Assembly (NCBI RefSeq): GCF_003628535.1 | Contig: NZ_RBCI01000001.1 | Coordinates: 930,001 to 994,000, forward strand | DNA from: Flavisolibacter nicotianae | GTDB taxonomy: Bacteria > Bacteroidota > Bacteroidia > Chitinophagales > Chitinophagaceae | Length of the DNA: 64,000 nucleotides | Direction: 5' to 3' | Shown: positions 2,997-58,655 of the stretch, one piece after another | Layout: the number at the start of each line of letters is the position of its first letter | How positions within the stretch are numbered: the stretch's first letter is position 1 | The notes under the pieces: model-generated | Told to the model about the DNA's origin: nothing | The model's database searches: none | Seen by the model: the letters and a program-made list of their open reading frames with translations, nothing else | Position numbers and translations under genes: made by a program

Positions 2997-4124
2997 ATGA
3001 CAGAGGCTTTTCATCTGCAACAGATAGATGTGATTCGCAGTAAACGCAGCCGGCCGGTTGCCATCTGGCTTTTGGTGGGTGTGTTCATGATCGTTGTTCA
3101 AATTATTTTGGGCGGAATCACCCGTCTTACCGACTCTGGGCTTTCCATTACGGAATGGCAACCGATTTTAGGAACGTTGCCGCCGCTGAACGAGGCGCAA
3201 TGGAACAAAGCGTTCGAAGGTTACAAGCAGATCGCCCAATACAAAAACCTGCATGCTTATTTTACGCTGGACGATTTTAAGTCCATTTTTTTCTGGGAAT
3301 GGCTGCACCGGCTTTGGGGCCGACTGATCGGGATTGTGTTTGCCATCCCGTTTGTGCTTTTCCTGCTGCAGAAACGGTTCAGCAAGGACATGATCAACCC
3401 GATGCTCATTCTTTTTTTGCTCGGCGGCCTGCAGGGTGCCATCGGCTGGATCATGGTGAAAAGCGGCCTCAATGACGAAAACCTCTATGTCAGCCACATT
3501 CGCCTGGCCATTCATTTCATTACCGCTCTTGGCTTGCTGGTGTATACCTATTGGTTTGCCCTGCAGTTGTTGGTGCCACCCGGGCAGAAACTTGTGTTGC
3601 CTTCTTCCCGAACTTTTCTTTTTTGGATAATCGGGCTGCTGGTGCTGCAATTGATTTACGGTGCCTTCATGGCAGGGCTGAAAGCTGCAACAGCGGCACC
3701 AACCTGGCCTTCTATCAACGGTTCGTACCTGCCGGCCGGTATCGGTTCTTACCAGGGTAGGGAAGGCACATTCTTTTCGGCGCTTGTCAACAACCCGGTC
3801 ACCATCCATTTCATTCACCGGAACCTTGCTTACCTGCTAAGTCTTTTGCTTTTGGTTTGGACGAGCAAAGTGGCCAGGGTGCAGGGCAGTCCCCTGTTTC
3901 GCCGGGTGCGATGGATCCCGCTTGCACTGGTGATCGTGCAGGTAGGACTCGGTATCGCTGCCGTTTTAACCAGTTTGCAAAAAAAGCCGCAACAGTGGGG
4001 GATATTCGAGTGGAATGCACAGTTGCACCAGGCCGTGGCCATGCTGCTGCTGCTTTCCCTGGTTACGGTTTTATTTCTGCACAAGGCCTCCGGGTCTTCC
4101 GAAGGTGCGACTCGTGATGCATAA
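2997..4124 (+). CDS. ctaA: Heme A synthase (COX15/CtaA family)
   Basis: CtaA oxidises the C8 methyl group of heme O to a formyl group, giving heme A for cytochrome c oxidase; it is an inner-membrane protein. The 375-aa product has about eight hydrophobic segments and the conserved GGITRLTDSGLSITEWQP loop near residue 40. Four histidines sit in the expected places: EWLHRLWGR (His104), SHIRLAIHF (His167), IHRNLAYL (His274) and QLHQAVAML (His344); these are the heme ligands in the two four-helix halves. Length and order fit the type with a long periplasmic loop after helix 1. It appears monocistronic, with no cta/cox genes next to it. Confidence 0.93.
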   Translation: MTEAFHLQQIDVIRSKRSRPVAIWLLVGVFMIVVQIILGGITRLTDSGLSITEWQPILGTLPPLNEAQWNKAFEGYKQIAQYKNLHAYFTLDDFKSIFFWEWLHRLWGRLIGIVFAIPFVLFLLQKRFSKDMINPMLILFLLGGLQGAIGWIMVKSGLNDENLYVSHIRLAIHFITALGLLVYTYWFALQLLVPPGQKLVLPSSRTFLFWIIGLLVLQLIYGAFMAGLKAATAAPTWPSINGSYLPAGIGSYQGREGTFFSALVNNPVTIHFIHRNLAYLLSLLLLVWTSKVARVQGSPLFRRVRWIPLALVIVQVGLGIAAVLTSLQKKPQQWGIFEWNAQLHQAVAMLLLLSLVTVLFLHKASGSSEGATRDA

Positions 4125-4593
4125 GGACTGACTTAAGCAAGAGGCTTTTGTTTGCCGAAGAATTCCATCTCTTCAAGAGATGGAATTCTTTTTGCCCCAC
4201 TTCGTTCCGAACGTTGAACGGAGCCCTTCCTTCGTCAGGATAAACTGTGCAACGGGGGCTCAATGGATATTCTATTGCTGGTTCCGTAAAAAATATATCG
4301 CTCCTTCGGAGCTTTATTCACTCTATTGTTCTTTCTTCTATTAACAGGATGCCCCTCCGGGGCAAAAGAAAAGCCGTTGGCGGGGACACCGAATGGCAGC
4401 AAAAGCCTCCACCAAAATGACTGATGAAGGCTATGGAGTATCGTACAAAAGCAAGGGTCTGTGCGATAGAAAGCCCTCCCTGGAGGGGTTTGGGTAGGTT
4501 ACCACTTCCTTCTTTGGCGGGCGGGGAGGCCGTAGCCGTGTGCAGCGAAGTAACCGCCTGGATCGTCTTAAAAGAAAGGTAAAGCCGCTAACT
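4125..4593. other. 469-bp intergenic gap filled by a dispersed repeat
   Basis: No gene is seen between ctaA and the patatin gene. The interval holds full copy A of the dispersed structured repeat (listed separately) and then about 90 bp of GC-rich sequence before the patatin start. Confidence 0.7.
4140..4502 (+). repeat. Dispersed structured repeat, copy A
   Basis: One of three full copies of a ~360-bp element (others near 29.0 kb and 58.3 kb). In order: a 16-bp perfect hairpin (4158-4173 with 4175-4190), a conserved stretch at about 4206-4255 (GCCCTTCCTTCGTCAGGATA and flanks), a GCTCC-TTCG-GAGC hairpin at 4300-4312, the conserved word TATTAACAGGA, a GCCCC-TCC-GGGGC hairpin at 4351-4363, an AAAGCCT/AGGCT imperfect hairpin, and a terminal CCCTCC-CTGGAGGGG module. 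There is no open reading frame. Orientation is defined as hairpin first, C-rich module last. Confidence 0.85.
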
Positions 4594-27064: not shown

Positions 27065-28403
27065 AACGTTCCTTGCCGCTGCTCTTTGTTCCTCCATATT
27101 TTCCCAATCACTCCACGCACAGGATAACTCGCCGTATTCGCGTTATGGCATCGGTAACCTGTATTCGCGTATGAATGTGATCAACAGGGGCATGGGCGGT
27201 GTATCGGCTGCGTATTCGGATATCTTTTCCATCAATTACAACAACCCGGCTTCGTATGCCGGCTTCCAGGTATTCCAGGAGCAACGGTCCAAAAAAGTTT
27301 CGTCGGCCCGTGTGATTCTGGATGCCGCCGTGAGCTACGACAGCCGCAAGCTGGCCGAGCCCAACACCACCAGCAGCTTCACGTCGAACGACATCCTGTT
27401 TTCGCATGTGTATGTAGGTGTGCCCATTCGCAAGAACTGGGGCCTGGCCTTTGGCATTCGTCCGTTGAGCCGCATCAGCTACGATATTTTGCGCACAGAG
27501 CAACTGCATACGCCATCGGGCATGCTGATCGACAGCGCCTTTACCCAATACAGCGGATCGGGCGGAAGCTTTCTGCCTTCGATCGGTACGGGCTTTGGCA
27601 CCAATAACTTTCGTGTCGGTGTGAACATCGGTTACCTGTTTGGCAAAAAAGAACTGGTTACCCGCCGCGGCTTTTTAAGTGATACGATCAGTTATGCTGC
27701 GTCCAACCACACGACCAACACCAACTTCGGCGGCCTGTTTTACACGGTGGGCACACAATGGTCGGTAGACCTGAGCAAGAAAGCGATACTGCGCCTCGGC
27801 GCCTCGGGCAACTGGAAGCAGACCATCAACGGAACACAGGACATTCACCGACAAACTTATACCCGCAACTCCTCGGGACAGGAAGTGCAGGTGGACAGTG
27901 TGTTTAGCCAAACTGATAGCAAAGGCTCCGTGATTTATCCCGGAACCTACACGGCTGGCTTTATGCTCGACCTGGCCCCCGGCCAGCGTACCAATGGCTG
28001 GAACATCGGTGTGGATTATGCTGCCGGCAAATGGAACGACTACCGTTTCTTTGGTGCACAGGACCTGGTGCAGAACAACTGGGAGCTGCGTTTTGGCGCA
28101 CAGATTACACCGTCTGAAGACGCCCTGCAGAACGGCAAGCTGAAAAGCTACCGCATCGGCTTTTTCACAGGTCGCGACTACGTCAAAGTGGGCAACGACC
28201 TGCCGGTGGTTGGATTTAGCCTGGGCCTTGGTCTTCCGCTCCGCAACTACAGCCGCCTGAGCAACCAGGCCAGCGTGCTGAATTTTGGACTGGAATACAT
28301 CAAACGCGGCAACGACCAAAACCTGATCAAAGAAGATTTGTTCCGTCTTTCGCTGGGCCTCAACTTTACGGACTTTTGGTTTGGCAAGCGCAAATATGAC
28401 TAA
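27030..28403 (+). CDS. Outer-membrane beta-barrel protein (FadL-like)
   Basis: A 457-aa exported barrel: signal peptide ending SLHAQ, then NSPYSRYGIGNLYSRMNVINRGMGGVSAAYSDIFSINYNNPASYAG, a start shared by FadL/OmpP1-like transport barrels of Bacteroidota, and alternating amphipathic strands to the C-terminal LSLGLNFTDFWFG. The start could be ATG 27030 or GTG 27051, which gives a neater signal. It overlaps coaX and is followed by lptC with an 8-bp overlap, a usual order in this phylum, so it is probably linked to outer-membrane biogenesis. Cargo unknown. Confidence 0.85.
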   Translation: MQSVGITVFRNRTFLAAALCSSIFSQSLHAQDNSPYSRYGIGNLYSRMNVINRGMGGVSAAYSDIFSINYNNPASYAGFQVFQEQRSKKVSSARVILDAAVSYDSRKLAEPNTTSSFTSNDILFSHVYVGVPIRKNWGLAFGIRPLSRISYDILRTEQLHTPSGMLIDSAFTQYSGSGGSFLPSIGTGFGTNNFRVGVNIGYLFGKKELVTRRGFLSDTISYAASNHTTNTNFGGLFYTVGTQWSVDLSKKAILRLGASGNWKQTINGTQDIHRQTYTRNSSGQEVQVDSVFSQTDSKGSVIYPGTYTAGFMLDLAPGQRTNGWNIGVDYAAGKWNDYRFFGAQDLVQNNWELRFGAQITPSEDALQNGKLKSYRIGFFTGRDYVKVGNDLPVVGFSLGLGLPLRNYSRLSNQASVLNFGLEYIKRGNDQNLIKEDLFRLSLGLNFTDFWFGKRKYD

Positions 28404-29031
28404 ACAGCTTTTGCAAACACATCCTCTCTCTTTCGTCAAGCGTCAAACGTCAAACGTCAAACAAAGGACACTCCTGTTTCACGTCTCGCGTTTGACGTTT
28501 TTCGTTTTCGCCTGCCTGGTCTTTTGGAGCTGCGAAAACGACGTGGAAAAAGTAAATGCCACCAACGAACGCAAACCCAATATCGAAGAAGCGTTCAAAA
28601 TAGAGAGTTTTCTCAGCCAGGCCGGCCTGCAAAGAGCCAAGCTGGTGGCGCCTTACATGAAGCGCTACACGATGGATACGTCCTACCTCGAATTTCCGCG
28701 GTCGCTGCACGTGAATTTTTTCGACAGCACCGGCAAAGTGGAAAGCCAGGTAGAAGCGCTTTATGGCAAATACCTGGAAACCCAAAGCAAGGTTTACCTG
28801 CGCGACAGCGTGGTTGCCTTCAATGTAAAAGGCGATACCCTGCGAACGCCGGACCTCTGGTGGGACCAGAACACCCGGAAATTTTTTACCGATAAAGTGG
28901 TGCGCTTTAAATCATCAACGAAAGTGATCTATGGCGGAAAGGGCTTTGAAGCCGACCAGGATCTTTCGCACTACACCATCTTCCAGCCGACCGGCGTGCT
29001 CCTTGTACCCGACAGCATGACGGCACAATAG
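28396..29031 (+). CDS. lptC: LPS export ABC transporter periplasmic protein LptC
   Basis: LptC sits in the inner membrane and passes LPS from LptBFG to LptA. The 211-aa protein has an N-terminal hydrophobic segment ending in FWSC (lipobox-like Cys, about residue 46) and the LptC jelly-roll pattern: LVAPYMKRYTMDTSYLEFPRSLHVNFFDSTGKVES, AKYLETQSKVYLRDSVVAFNVKGDTLRTPDLWWDQNTRKFFTDKVVRF. Residues about 12-37 are encoded by a short-word inverted repeat, giving an abnormally long and basic leader; an internal TTG at about 28491 would give a normal lipoprotein signal. The downstream stop is followed by repeat copy B. Confidence 0.85.
   Translation: MTKQLLQTHPLSFVKRQTSNVKQRTLLFHVSRLTFFVFACLVFWSCENDVEKVNATNERKPNIEEAFKIESFLSQAGLQRAKLVAPYMKRYTMDTSYLEFPRSLHVNFFDSTGKVESQVEALYGKYLETQSKVYLRDSVVAFNVKGDTLRTPDLWWDQNTRKFFTDKVVRFKSSTKVIYGGKGFEADQDLSHYTIFQPTGVLLVPDSMTAQ
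28437..28506. repeat. Inverted word repeat inside the 5' end of lptC
   Basis: Three tandem CGTCAAA words (from 28440) face the inverse GCGTTTGACGTTT (28490-28502) with about 30 bp between. AAACGTCAAACG pairs exactly with CGTTTGACGTTT. The repeat lies within the annotated lptC frame. Confidence 0.65.
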
Positions 29032-29032
29032 C

Positions 29033-29399
29033 CCCCTCGGTCCCCCAAGGGGGAAGTGGCATCCGCACAGATCCTTGCTTTTTCATGATAGTTCAAAGCC
29101 TTCATCATTCAGTTTGATGGAGGCTTTTTGCTGCCGGCCGGCGTCCTGCCAATGGCTTTTCTTTTGCCCCGGAGGAGCATCCTGTTAATAGAAAATGTTC
29201 ATAGAAGAGATAATAAAGCTCCGAAGGAGCGACATATTTTTCTTTTGCTACCAGCAGCAGAATAGCCATGAAGCTTCCGTTGCACAATTTATCCTGACGA
29301 AGGAAGGGCCCGTTCAACGTTTGGAACGCAGCCGGACAAAAAGAATTCCATCCCTCGAAGAGATGGAATTCTTCGGCAAACAAAAGCATCTTGCCTAAG
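29033..29399 (-). repeat. Dispersed structured repeat, copy B (inverted)
   Basis: Same modules as copy A in reverse order on the plus strand: C-rich CCCCC/GGGGG hairpin (29033-29055), AAAGCC hairpin (about 29097-29132), GCCCC-GGA-GGAGC (29166-29178), the GCTCC/GGAGC hairpin (29218-29230), the CCTGACGAAGGAAGGGC word (about 29293-29309) and the long AAGAATTCCATC hairpin (29341-29373). Differences from copy A in the stems become G-U wobble pairs when read on the minus strand. Confidence 0.85.
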
Positions 29400-29462
29400 C
29401 GGGCCCTGTGCGTTGTGGCTCCCTCTTCTTGTGGAGTGGGCCGGGGTGAGGTGTTCTTTGCC

Positions 29463-52448: not shown

Positions 52449-52548
52449 TAGCCCCCTCGATCCCCAAAGGGAAGAGGCAAAGCACAGGGCTCGCTTATTT
52501 AGACTTCTTGAAAGCTCTCAATCATTTTCCAATGGTGAGAGCTTTTTT
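52449..52548 (-). repeat. Dispersed structured repeat, truncated copy D
   Basis: GCCCCCTCGATCCCC, AGGGAAGAGGC, a CACAGGGCTCGCTT word and an AAAGCTCTC hairpin match in order the C-rich end of copy B (GCCCCCTCGGTCCCC, AGTGGC, CACAGATCCTTGCTT, AAAGCC hairpin). The TTCG hairpin and the long AATTCC hairpin modules are missing. It begins 2 bp after the rpmH stop, as copy B begins next to the lptC stop. Confidence 0.65.
52511..52545 (+). terminator. Terminator-like hairpin between rpmH and rnpA
   Basis: AAAGCTCTCA (52511-52520) pairs with TGAGAGCTTT (52536-52545); the loop can extend the stem with ATCATT/AATGGT around TTCC, and TTTTTT follows. It is part of repeat copy D and would separate rpmH from rnpA transcription. 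Confidence 0.6.
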
Positions 52549-52629
52549 CATTACAGGTGATGGTTGAAGAAGCTGGCTGTGCGTAGGCCATCCCCTCCTT
52601 TGGGAACGGGGATGCAGTATTTTTATCCC

Positions 52630-58222: not shown

Positions 58223-58283
58223 AGCACCTCACCCTAACCCTCTCCTCAAGGAGAGGGAATTTCTGCGTACCGGGCCCGCTTGG

Positions 58284-58655
58284 GCAAGATGATTTTTTAT
58301 GTCAAGGAATGCCATCCCTCGAAGGGATGGCATTCCTTGACATCCATCTGTGTTCCGAACGCTGAACGGAGCCCTTCCTTCGTCAGGATAAACTGTGCAA
58401 CGGCAGCTTCATGTCTATTCTGTTGCTGGTGACATAAAAAATATATCGCTCCTTCGGAGCTTTGATTTCTTTTCTCTTCTTTTTTCTATTAACAGGACGC
58501 CCCTCCGGGGCAAAAGAAAAGCAATTGGCAGGGACGCCAACCAGCAGCAAAAAGCCTCCACCAGCATGACTGGTGAAGGCTTTGAAGTATCGTGTAAAAG
58601 CAAGGGTCTGTGCGGTTGTAAGCCCCTCCCTGGAGGGGTTTGGGGAGGCTTTTGA
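58284..58655 (+). repeat. Dispersed structured repeat, copy C
   Basis: Same order and orientation as copy A. The long hairpin here has perfect 20-bp arms (58300-58319 with 58323-58342) and differs from copy A at several stem positions that change on both sides. The GCTCC-TTCG-GAGC hairpin is at 58448-58460, GCCCC-TCC-GGGGC at 58499-58511, AAAGCCTCCACCAG/CTGGTGAAGGCTTT at about 58552-58584 and the C-rich module at 58622-58650, which ends about 25 bp from the GLPGLI stop. Confidence 0.85.

Follow-up and report, generated by a model that had tools for sequence, protein, structure and literature searches.

A dispersed modular element of Flavisolibacter nicotianae combines inward-facing terminator-like hairpins with a hairpin doublet also found beside a Y1 transposase gene

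A 64,000-nt stretch of the Flavisolibacter nicotianae genome (contig NZ_RBCI01000001.1, positions 930,001 to 994,000; hereafter the window) contains three full copies, A to C, of a dispersed, modular, gene-less and mostly non-coding element of ~360–450 bp, of which many more copies occur elsewhere in the genome. Its two ends are alike, each consisting of a C-rich palindrome, a box of the GCACAG...GCTT..GCA.GAT type and an inward-facing terminator-like hairpin, and its middle is a hairpin-TGTTAATAG-hairpin doublet whose arrangement recurs beside P0001, one of three Y1_Tnp genes revealed by a PF01797 search of the host genome. At most of the copies examined the right-hand gene runs toward the element, and the site of copy A looks empty in three relatives. 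We consider it somewhat probable that this is a non-autonomous modular element, similar to the repetitive extragenic palindromic (REP) sequences and bacterial interspersed mosaic elements (BIMEs), which acts as a bidirectional gene 3′ end and has been spread by P0001.

Copies, extent and anatomy of the element

Searching the host genome (6.09 Mb, 70 contigs) by BLAST with copy A as query yielded 51 pieces, which were sorted by hand into 33 substantial copies, six fragments, two second pieces of split copies and 10 reverse matches, these last reflecting the self-complementary first hairpin (H1) and not further copies. The original prediction, made from the sequence of the window, had described copies A, B (inverted) and C with an ordered set of modules, and these we found in place; its count of three full copies holds for the window and not for the genome with its ~33 substantial copies, other copies having turned up in the very genome-wide search that it had proposed. 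Core-region identity among the 22 full copies is 72–88.5% (median 81%), and the family appears to be old, with no recent duplicates among the 22 compared. A piece of the element is also present in at least 16 of the 293 other genomes of the family (Chitinophagaceae), a lower bound because two candidates were scored per genome, in a sample that did not include G299 and G301, two relatives considered below. A literature search found no paper on this element, most subscription journals being outside its coverage.

From the left, the aligned copies start with a C-rich palindromic end of several kinds, then the inner inverted repeat opening GCACAG, then H1. An optional module, CCCTTCCTTCGTCAGGATAAACTGT, or GAGTGCGAC or similar in its place, stands ahead of GCAAC, which is followed by H4 (GCTCC), ~30 nt, TATTAACAGG, H5 (GCCCC), H6 and H7; H7, with its T's on the minus strand, is succeeded by the right inner inverted repeat ending CTGTGC and the right C-rich end. 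The two short hairpins of the core are spaced by CCTGTTAATAG and ~28 nt. The word TTCGTCAGG was found elsewhere at six places in G269 and three in G302. The features, in window positions except for the last, are as follows.

4085–4531, plus strand: copy A, full; extent by eye against apparently empty sites; ends GGCCTCC ... GGAGGCC
4085–4124, plus: left C-rich end (degenerate in this copy), read as the C-terminal tail ...FLHKASGSSEGATRDA (then stop) of the preceding protein; at this place in G299 and G301 too, a C-rich end encodes the tail
4160–4193, plus: H1, long hairpin then T run; terminator-like, inward; compensatory changes in six pairs
4223–4242, plus: GCCCTTCCTTCGTCAGGATA word, part of the optional module; GAGTGCGACGCAAC or similar in other copies
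4300–4312, minus: H4, GCTCC hairpin, the second one in the transposase-type doublet
4339–4349, minus: TATTAACAGGA, reading TCCTGTTAATA(G) on the minus strand; site lying 3′ of the first hairpin of the doublet
4351–4363, minus: H5, GCCCC hairpin; first hairpin of the doublet
4373–4397, minus: H6, hairpin of the GCCGTTGGCG/CGCCAAACGGC type, followed on the minus strand by a T-rich stretch
4401–4432, minus: H7, hairpin with T run; terminator-like, inward; region also present in G299 and G301
4449–4464, minus: right inner inverted repeat, with minus-strand sequence GCACAGACCCTTGCTT
4465–4531, minus: right C-rich palindromic end
29029–29453, minus: copy B, full; right C-rich end opens with the stop codon TAG (29029–29031, its first three bases) of the gene 28381–29031
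58225–58649, plus: copy C, full; 29 nt separate its right end from the stop codon of a gene on the minus strand
52449–52615, plus: 'copy D', a C-rich end around the rpmH terminator; end module only, with GCACAG box 52482–52497 and terminator 52511–52548
Contig 9:37410–37868 (locus L031): P0001 gene, 153 aa; Y1_Tnp, HUH motif DHVH, YILNQPLHH

Judged by eye, the part of copy A that is missing from the apparently empty sites extends the block beyond the 4140–4502 first proposed. The C-rich end does lie beside a gene stop in B, C and D, as had been noticed. The statement that the element codes for nothing stands insofar as no gene is carried: none of the 30 copies examined contains a scored open reading frame (ORF); overlaps of 23 and 7 nt with a copy were seen for two ORFs next to one. 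The statement is not strictly true of the left end of copy A, which encodes a protein tail, or of L211 (contig 1:714400-715500, minus strand), where an ORF at least 367 codons long, to our eye resembling a 2-oxoacid dehydrogenase E1, contains in frame a decayed element still bearing both C-rich ends.

The core doublet recurs beside P0001 and related transposase genes

The P0001 motif, Y---Q--HH, fits the subclass 1.2 signature, as judged by motif, as do those of all 80 named homologues, which come from Chryseobacterium, Flavobacterium, Segetibacter and other Bacteroidetes. P0001 scores 69 bits against a cut-off of 55 with the NCBIfam IS200/IS605 model, the solved transposases 2xm3 and 2f4f match it weakly, and 140 of the 294 family genomes contain homologues at E <= 1e-15. 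3′ of its stop codon lie, in order, 8 nt, CGCTCCTACGGAGC, 30 nt, TAACAGG and a GAGCC hairpin, the same arrangement as H4-TATTAACAGG-H5 in the element; an inverted counterpart, identified by eye, lies ahead of its start, giving one doublet on each side. The P0001 locus and the elements have this core arrangement in common and differ in their ends. The exact pattern CGCTCCNNCGGAGCN{24,44}TAACAG occurs 10 times in the 6.09 Mb, nine times in element copies and once after the P0001 stop, with no occurrence of the reversed control.

We described the doublet by a rule (hairpin, 5–12 nt, TAG, 20–36 nt, hairpin) that is not blind, since it was written after the flanks of some of the tested loci had been seen. 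It was satisfied beside related genes at 22/27 family loci and 70/80 named loci, compared to 0/27 and 0/80 control windows, and within the elements in 16/30 on the minus strand and 1/30 on the plus strand. This rule and the hairpin count below used 27 of the 30 family loci, leaving out L087, L095 and L096, whose flanks are cut; nine of the 80 named loci (L113, L114, L144, L146, L153, L157, L173, L179 and L183) lacked one complete control window, both for this rule and for the strict unit below. Plain hairpins near the transposase gene numbered 28, at 13/27 family loci, against five at 5/27 in the controls. A stricter single unit, [ACT]TGTT 2–7 nt after a hairpin, was present near the gene at 74/80 named loci (control 1/80), and a looser one allowing any base before TGTT was found in 19/30 elements on the minus strand and none on the plus strand, shuffled minus strands giving a mean of 0.26/30 and a maximum of 2. 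Outside the host genome, the matches listed for the H4 part are one in G059 and two in G149, all ending 12–61 nt before P0001-like genes.

P0001-type genes recur at particular places within gene clusters, as though their hosts retained them (L031, L105-L184). By eye, P0001 lies between what are presumably nuoL-like and nuoM-like genes, a nuoM-like start being recognizable at 3/80 named loci. The other two Y1_Tnp proteins of the host, both encoded on contig 2, lie among different palindromes by eye: P0002 (L032; Y---Q--HH) among GCCCCGAAGGGGC palindromes and P0003 (L033; Y---NP) among GGGGTCTTCGCAG/GCGAGACCCC repeats, so that each seems to have a repeat of its own.

Right ends of the element mostly lie near gene ends

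Genes around 30 of the ~33 copies were called by codon score, not homology. The right-hand gene runs toward the element in 25/30 (two-sided binomial p = 3e-4), ending in those cases 3–71 nt from the end of the BLAST match; the left neighbour does so in 15/30, and the flanking genes converge at 11. Because 25/30 right-hand genes run in, the right end with H7 appears to be the one used as a gene ending, and at the 11 copies with converging genes both ends would be so used. In a terminator scan, the best pick for the minus strand was H7 in 27/30 copies, H6 in L008 and L022, and another hairpin in L001; on the plus strand it was H1 in 19/30, another hairpin in eight and none in three, several of the picks other than H1 being copies truncated on the left. 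H7 (minus) and H1 (plus) each consist of a stable hairpin followed by a T run, the mark of an intrinsic terminator, and they would probably terminate transcription in the cell.

The site of copy A in relatives, and an alternative based on a conventional inverted-repeat element

Both genes flanking copy A, the preceding one presumably encoding CtaA, a heme A synthase-like protein, were matched in G004, G269, G296, G299 and G301. The matched parts are separated by 147 nt in G004, 79 in G269 and 191 in G296, where the host counterparts measure 501, 523 and 621 nt, and these three sites apparently lack the element. The proposed comparison of orthologous sites thus provided apparently empty ones, and no target-site duplication was seen by eye at copy A versus G004, at this one site with its diverged flanks. 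The preceding protein ends ...FLHKQNKSAAA in G004, ...FLHKASGSSEGATRDA in the host, ...FLHGERASPGPSGGGVA in G301 and ...FLHRKKASPSPPQAEGEI in G299, each followed by the stop.

These sites, together with the imperfect inverted repeats at both ends, would also suit an ordinary miniature inverted-repeat transposable element (MITE), whose ends are terminal inverted repeats for a DDE transposase encoded elsewhere. We regard this as improbable, since no target duplication was seen by eye at A, the C-rich ends are of several exchangeable kinds (by eye) with no single fixed terminus, and the conserved doublet would be left unexplained. No transposase-carrying parent with identical ends, which the original prediction had considered as pointing to an ordinary MITE, was found for Y1_Tnp (PF01797), the sole family searched.

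In G299 and G301 the copy-A interval is occupied, being 776 and 800 nt long respectively. Seen through dispersed copies (L301, L302), the blocks there carry the H7 end next to the stop codon and a different core. That of G299 recurs at L302 in the same genome (75.6% identity over 500 nt) and is 72.9% identical to the G301 core over 454 nt. They may represent one old insertion whose core was turned or exchanged, or a site that was reused. A separate core of ~450–500 nt in the same kind of shell was observed in both genomes (L285, L286, L302, L308). A transposase-type doublet suspected by eye in the G301 cores L301 and L306 is not claimed, the unit test having found none in L301 and one in L306.

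'Copy D' is a shared end around a native rpmH terminator

Copy D had been taken for a truncated copy of the element. We compared the rpmH-rnpA gap within the genus (matched in 17/18 genomes, own included) and rejected this view: D shares only the end module, and the hairpin AAAGCTCTCA...TGAGAGCTTTTTT, in this or a closely similar form, is present at the orthologous place in 4 of the 11 non-own loci listed (L186, L187, L188, L190), which identifies it as the native rpmH terminator; the remaining 7/11 have other hairpins there (by eye). A C-rich/GCACAG-type end surrounds the terminator in this gap in three species, namely our own, G269 (GCACAA) and G302 (ACGCAG), the latter two by eye. In G302, end and terminator occur together at three further places, at two of them with a ACACGGAT...ATCCGTGT hairpin behind.

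These observations bear on a second alternative, in which the shell itself would be the repeat proper: gene 3′ ends would have been copied from one gene to another by recombination or gene conversion, with the cores, doublet included, as passengers between facing shells. It would account for the finding that similar ends accompany other cores in three relatives (G299, G301, G302) and also surround the native rpmH terminator, for the presence of the G299 A-site core at L302 as well, and for L205, a shell without doublet. Nevertheless, the host block is repeated with an alignable core, and a whole block is absent at A in G004, G269 and G296, so that we hold this alternative to be unlikely, though it is the most serious one.

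Folding and the possibility of an RNA family

The consensus fold of 22 copies contains several hairpins and closes the inner inverted repeats. On a trimmed alignment (A1), 47 pairs were predicted, nine of them with compensatory changes (six in H1), and the covariation term was −0.94; H7 is nearly invariant among copies, and covariation is therefore neutral on its pairing. Such a fold with compensatory changes could speak for a family of trans-acting structured RNAs or RNA switches. This we judge very improbable, the covariation term being small, terminator-like hairpins facing inward at both ends, and paired stems being equally expected of the single-stranded DNA sites of Y1 transposases. Rfam returned no match at gathering score in the 64,000-nt window, and among 13 loci searched with permissive thresholds only tRNAs in L214 reached it; sub-threshold matches were whalefall-1 and AbsR28 in L004 and three further ones in L214.

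Both of the kinds of element first envisaged, mobile and terminating, thus find support together in the dispersed copies, the apparently empty A sites, the core doublet, the inward terminator-like hairpins and the 25/30 gene ends. The third kind, a trans-acting RNA family, does not, because there is no Rfam gathering-score match in the window, no relevant one in the 13 loci, and inward terminator-like hairpins lie at both ends. Trans-acting RNAs and an ordinary DDE-type MITE both fit less well.

A separate repeat widespread in the family

The word GNGTGCGACGCAAC, by eye part of a ~60-nt repeat, occurs in 152/294 family genomes, up to 1275 times in one of them (G141), with almost no control matches. 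The host genome has 45 matches (example loci L213-L266), and in G004 12 of 50 listed places form six divergent (−,+) pairs 107–225 nt apart. This family-wide repeat is possibly more striking than the element itself. The idea that Y1 transposases move the GTGCGACGCAAC repeat was rejected: no Y1_Tnp was detected at 1e-6 in G141 (1275 matches) or G024 (250), these being two of the nine genomes checked for the link, and within 110 transposase loci the repeat occurs three times. A literature text search for GTGCGACGCAAC matched only an unrelated plant study.

Comparison with known systems

TnpA-Y1 proteins of subclass 1.2 are described as transposase-like and generally without typical IS200 terminal structures (PMC6006769). 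P0001 resembles them in its Y---Q--HH motif, its size (~150 aa) and its Bacteroidetes-type genome; it differs in that doublets stand beside 22/27 and 70/80 of the genes here, and it depends on the definition whether these are 'typical IS200' ends.

The REP/BIME/REPIN sequences associated with TnpA-REP (RAYT) are likewise paired short hairpins, intergenic and often downstream of coding regions (PMC6006769, PMC3733652, PMC2817692). Our element resembles them in its ~33 dispersed copies, mostly between genes (L211 being an intragenic fragment), and in the presence in the same genome of a Y1 gene, P0001, flanked by the same kind of pair. It differs in having two hairpins with a TAG-ending word between them, whereas REPs form an inverted pair with GTAG at the foot: no GTAG/GTGG hairpin foot was found, the TAG word (mostly TTAATAG or TTAGTAG in element copies) lying 5–12 nt 3′ of one hairpin and 20–36 nt 5′ of the next. 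It also differs in its repeated unit, a 360–450-bp block with terminators and C-rich ends, the exact doublet occurring outside elements at P0001 alone, and in the motif of P0001, which is that of subclass 1.2 and not the class 2 REP motif Y---NP (PMC6006769). We do not class the element as REP, given its larger repeated unit and its lack of a GTAG foot. Compared to IS200/IS605, P0001 passes the NCBIfam cut-off for that family, but no complete insertion sequence was found here and the block carries no gene.

To our knowledge, the sequences of the element and of BOX repeats of Streptococcus pneumoniae are unrelated. Like the element, BOX is modular and dispersed with ends predicted to pair, but target duplications have been reported for it and none was seen for the element at the one site examined (PMC3049150). 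SPRITEs, also from S. pneumoniae, are dispersed, resemble rho-independent terminators and are enriched near gene 3′ ends, and their co-option as terminators has been suggested (PMC3049150); each is one hairpin with AAAA/TTTT ends, in contrast to a modular element with two inward terminator-like hairpins and a transposase-type core. The core of the element would thus work like REP/BIME pairs, and its role at gene ends would be like that of SPRITE (PMC3049150).

Discussion

How might the element act and spread? Transcripts coming from the right would stop at H7, with H6 behind it, and those from the left at H1, so that the block would serve as the 3′ end of the right-hand gene, or of both genes when these are convergent. 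P0001 would cut and join the doublet as single-stranded DNA in trans, as is thought for TnpA-REP with REP/BIME pairs; such action would have spread the block, copies being kept where their terminators face a gene end. Because hairpin pairs beside Y1 genes are the kind of partner known for TnpA-REP, mobilisation by P0001 is the most economical account of the spread, and we infer both this mobilisation and the order of events.

Several observations weigh against this account. As regards the transposase, P0001 exceeds the NCBIfam cut-off for IS200/IS605 and falls below that for REP transposases (45 versus 80 bits). With the 122-nt core as query, BLAST failed to reach the flank of P0001, so that the similarity is one of pattern and arrangement; it is the whole block that is repeated, not the doublet alone, and its ends are unlike those at P0001. 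The strict unit was found in just 10/30 family loci (control 1/30), because the TGTT word varies. Among the named loci, 45/80 have one common gene neighbourhood (presumably hydroxyacyl-CoA dehydrogenase-like and thiolase-like genes); the strict unit is present in 44/45 of these and in 30/35 elsewhere. As regards movement, the highest identity among the 22 full copies (88.5%) gives no sign of a recent event. The G299 and G301 blocks at A have no direct BLAST match to the host block at 1e-4 and lie in the opposite orientation, and the shell right end (query 699–802) is dispersed with other cores, with 13 matches in G299 and 16 in G301 (cores viewed at two places in each); with shell ends dispersed in these genomes without the element doublet, shells may spread alone. 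Finally, the terminator scan had no shuffled control, and the A1 fold, from an alignment trimmed there, leaves the inner inverted repeats unclosed, unlike the consensus fold of the 22 copies.

More broadly, and tentatively, subclass 1.2 Y1 transposases may have a widespread DNA partner, hairpin-(5–12 nt)-TAG-(20–36 nt)-hairpin, that varies in sequence between species and is here embedded in a portable bidirectional terminator at gene 3′ ends; related shells with other cores in sister species would then make gene endings behave as exchangeable mobile cassettes. If true, this would provide a concrete DNA partner for domesticated-looking HUH transposases, none being described in PMC6006769, and the role of subclass 1.2 transposases would therefore be open to a simple binding and cutting assay. 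It would also mean that genes receive terminators, and in some cases C-terminal tails, from a mobile-element-like block, a point relevant to the evolution of bacterial gene ends.
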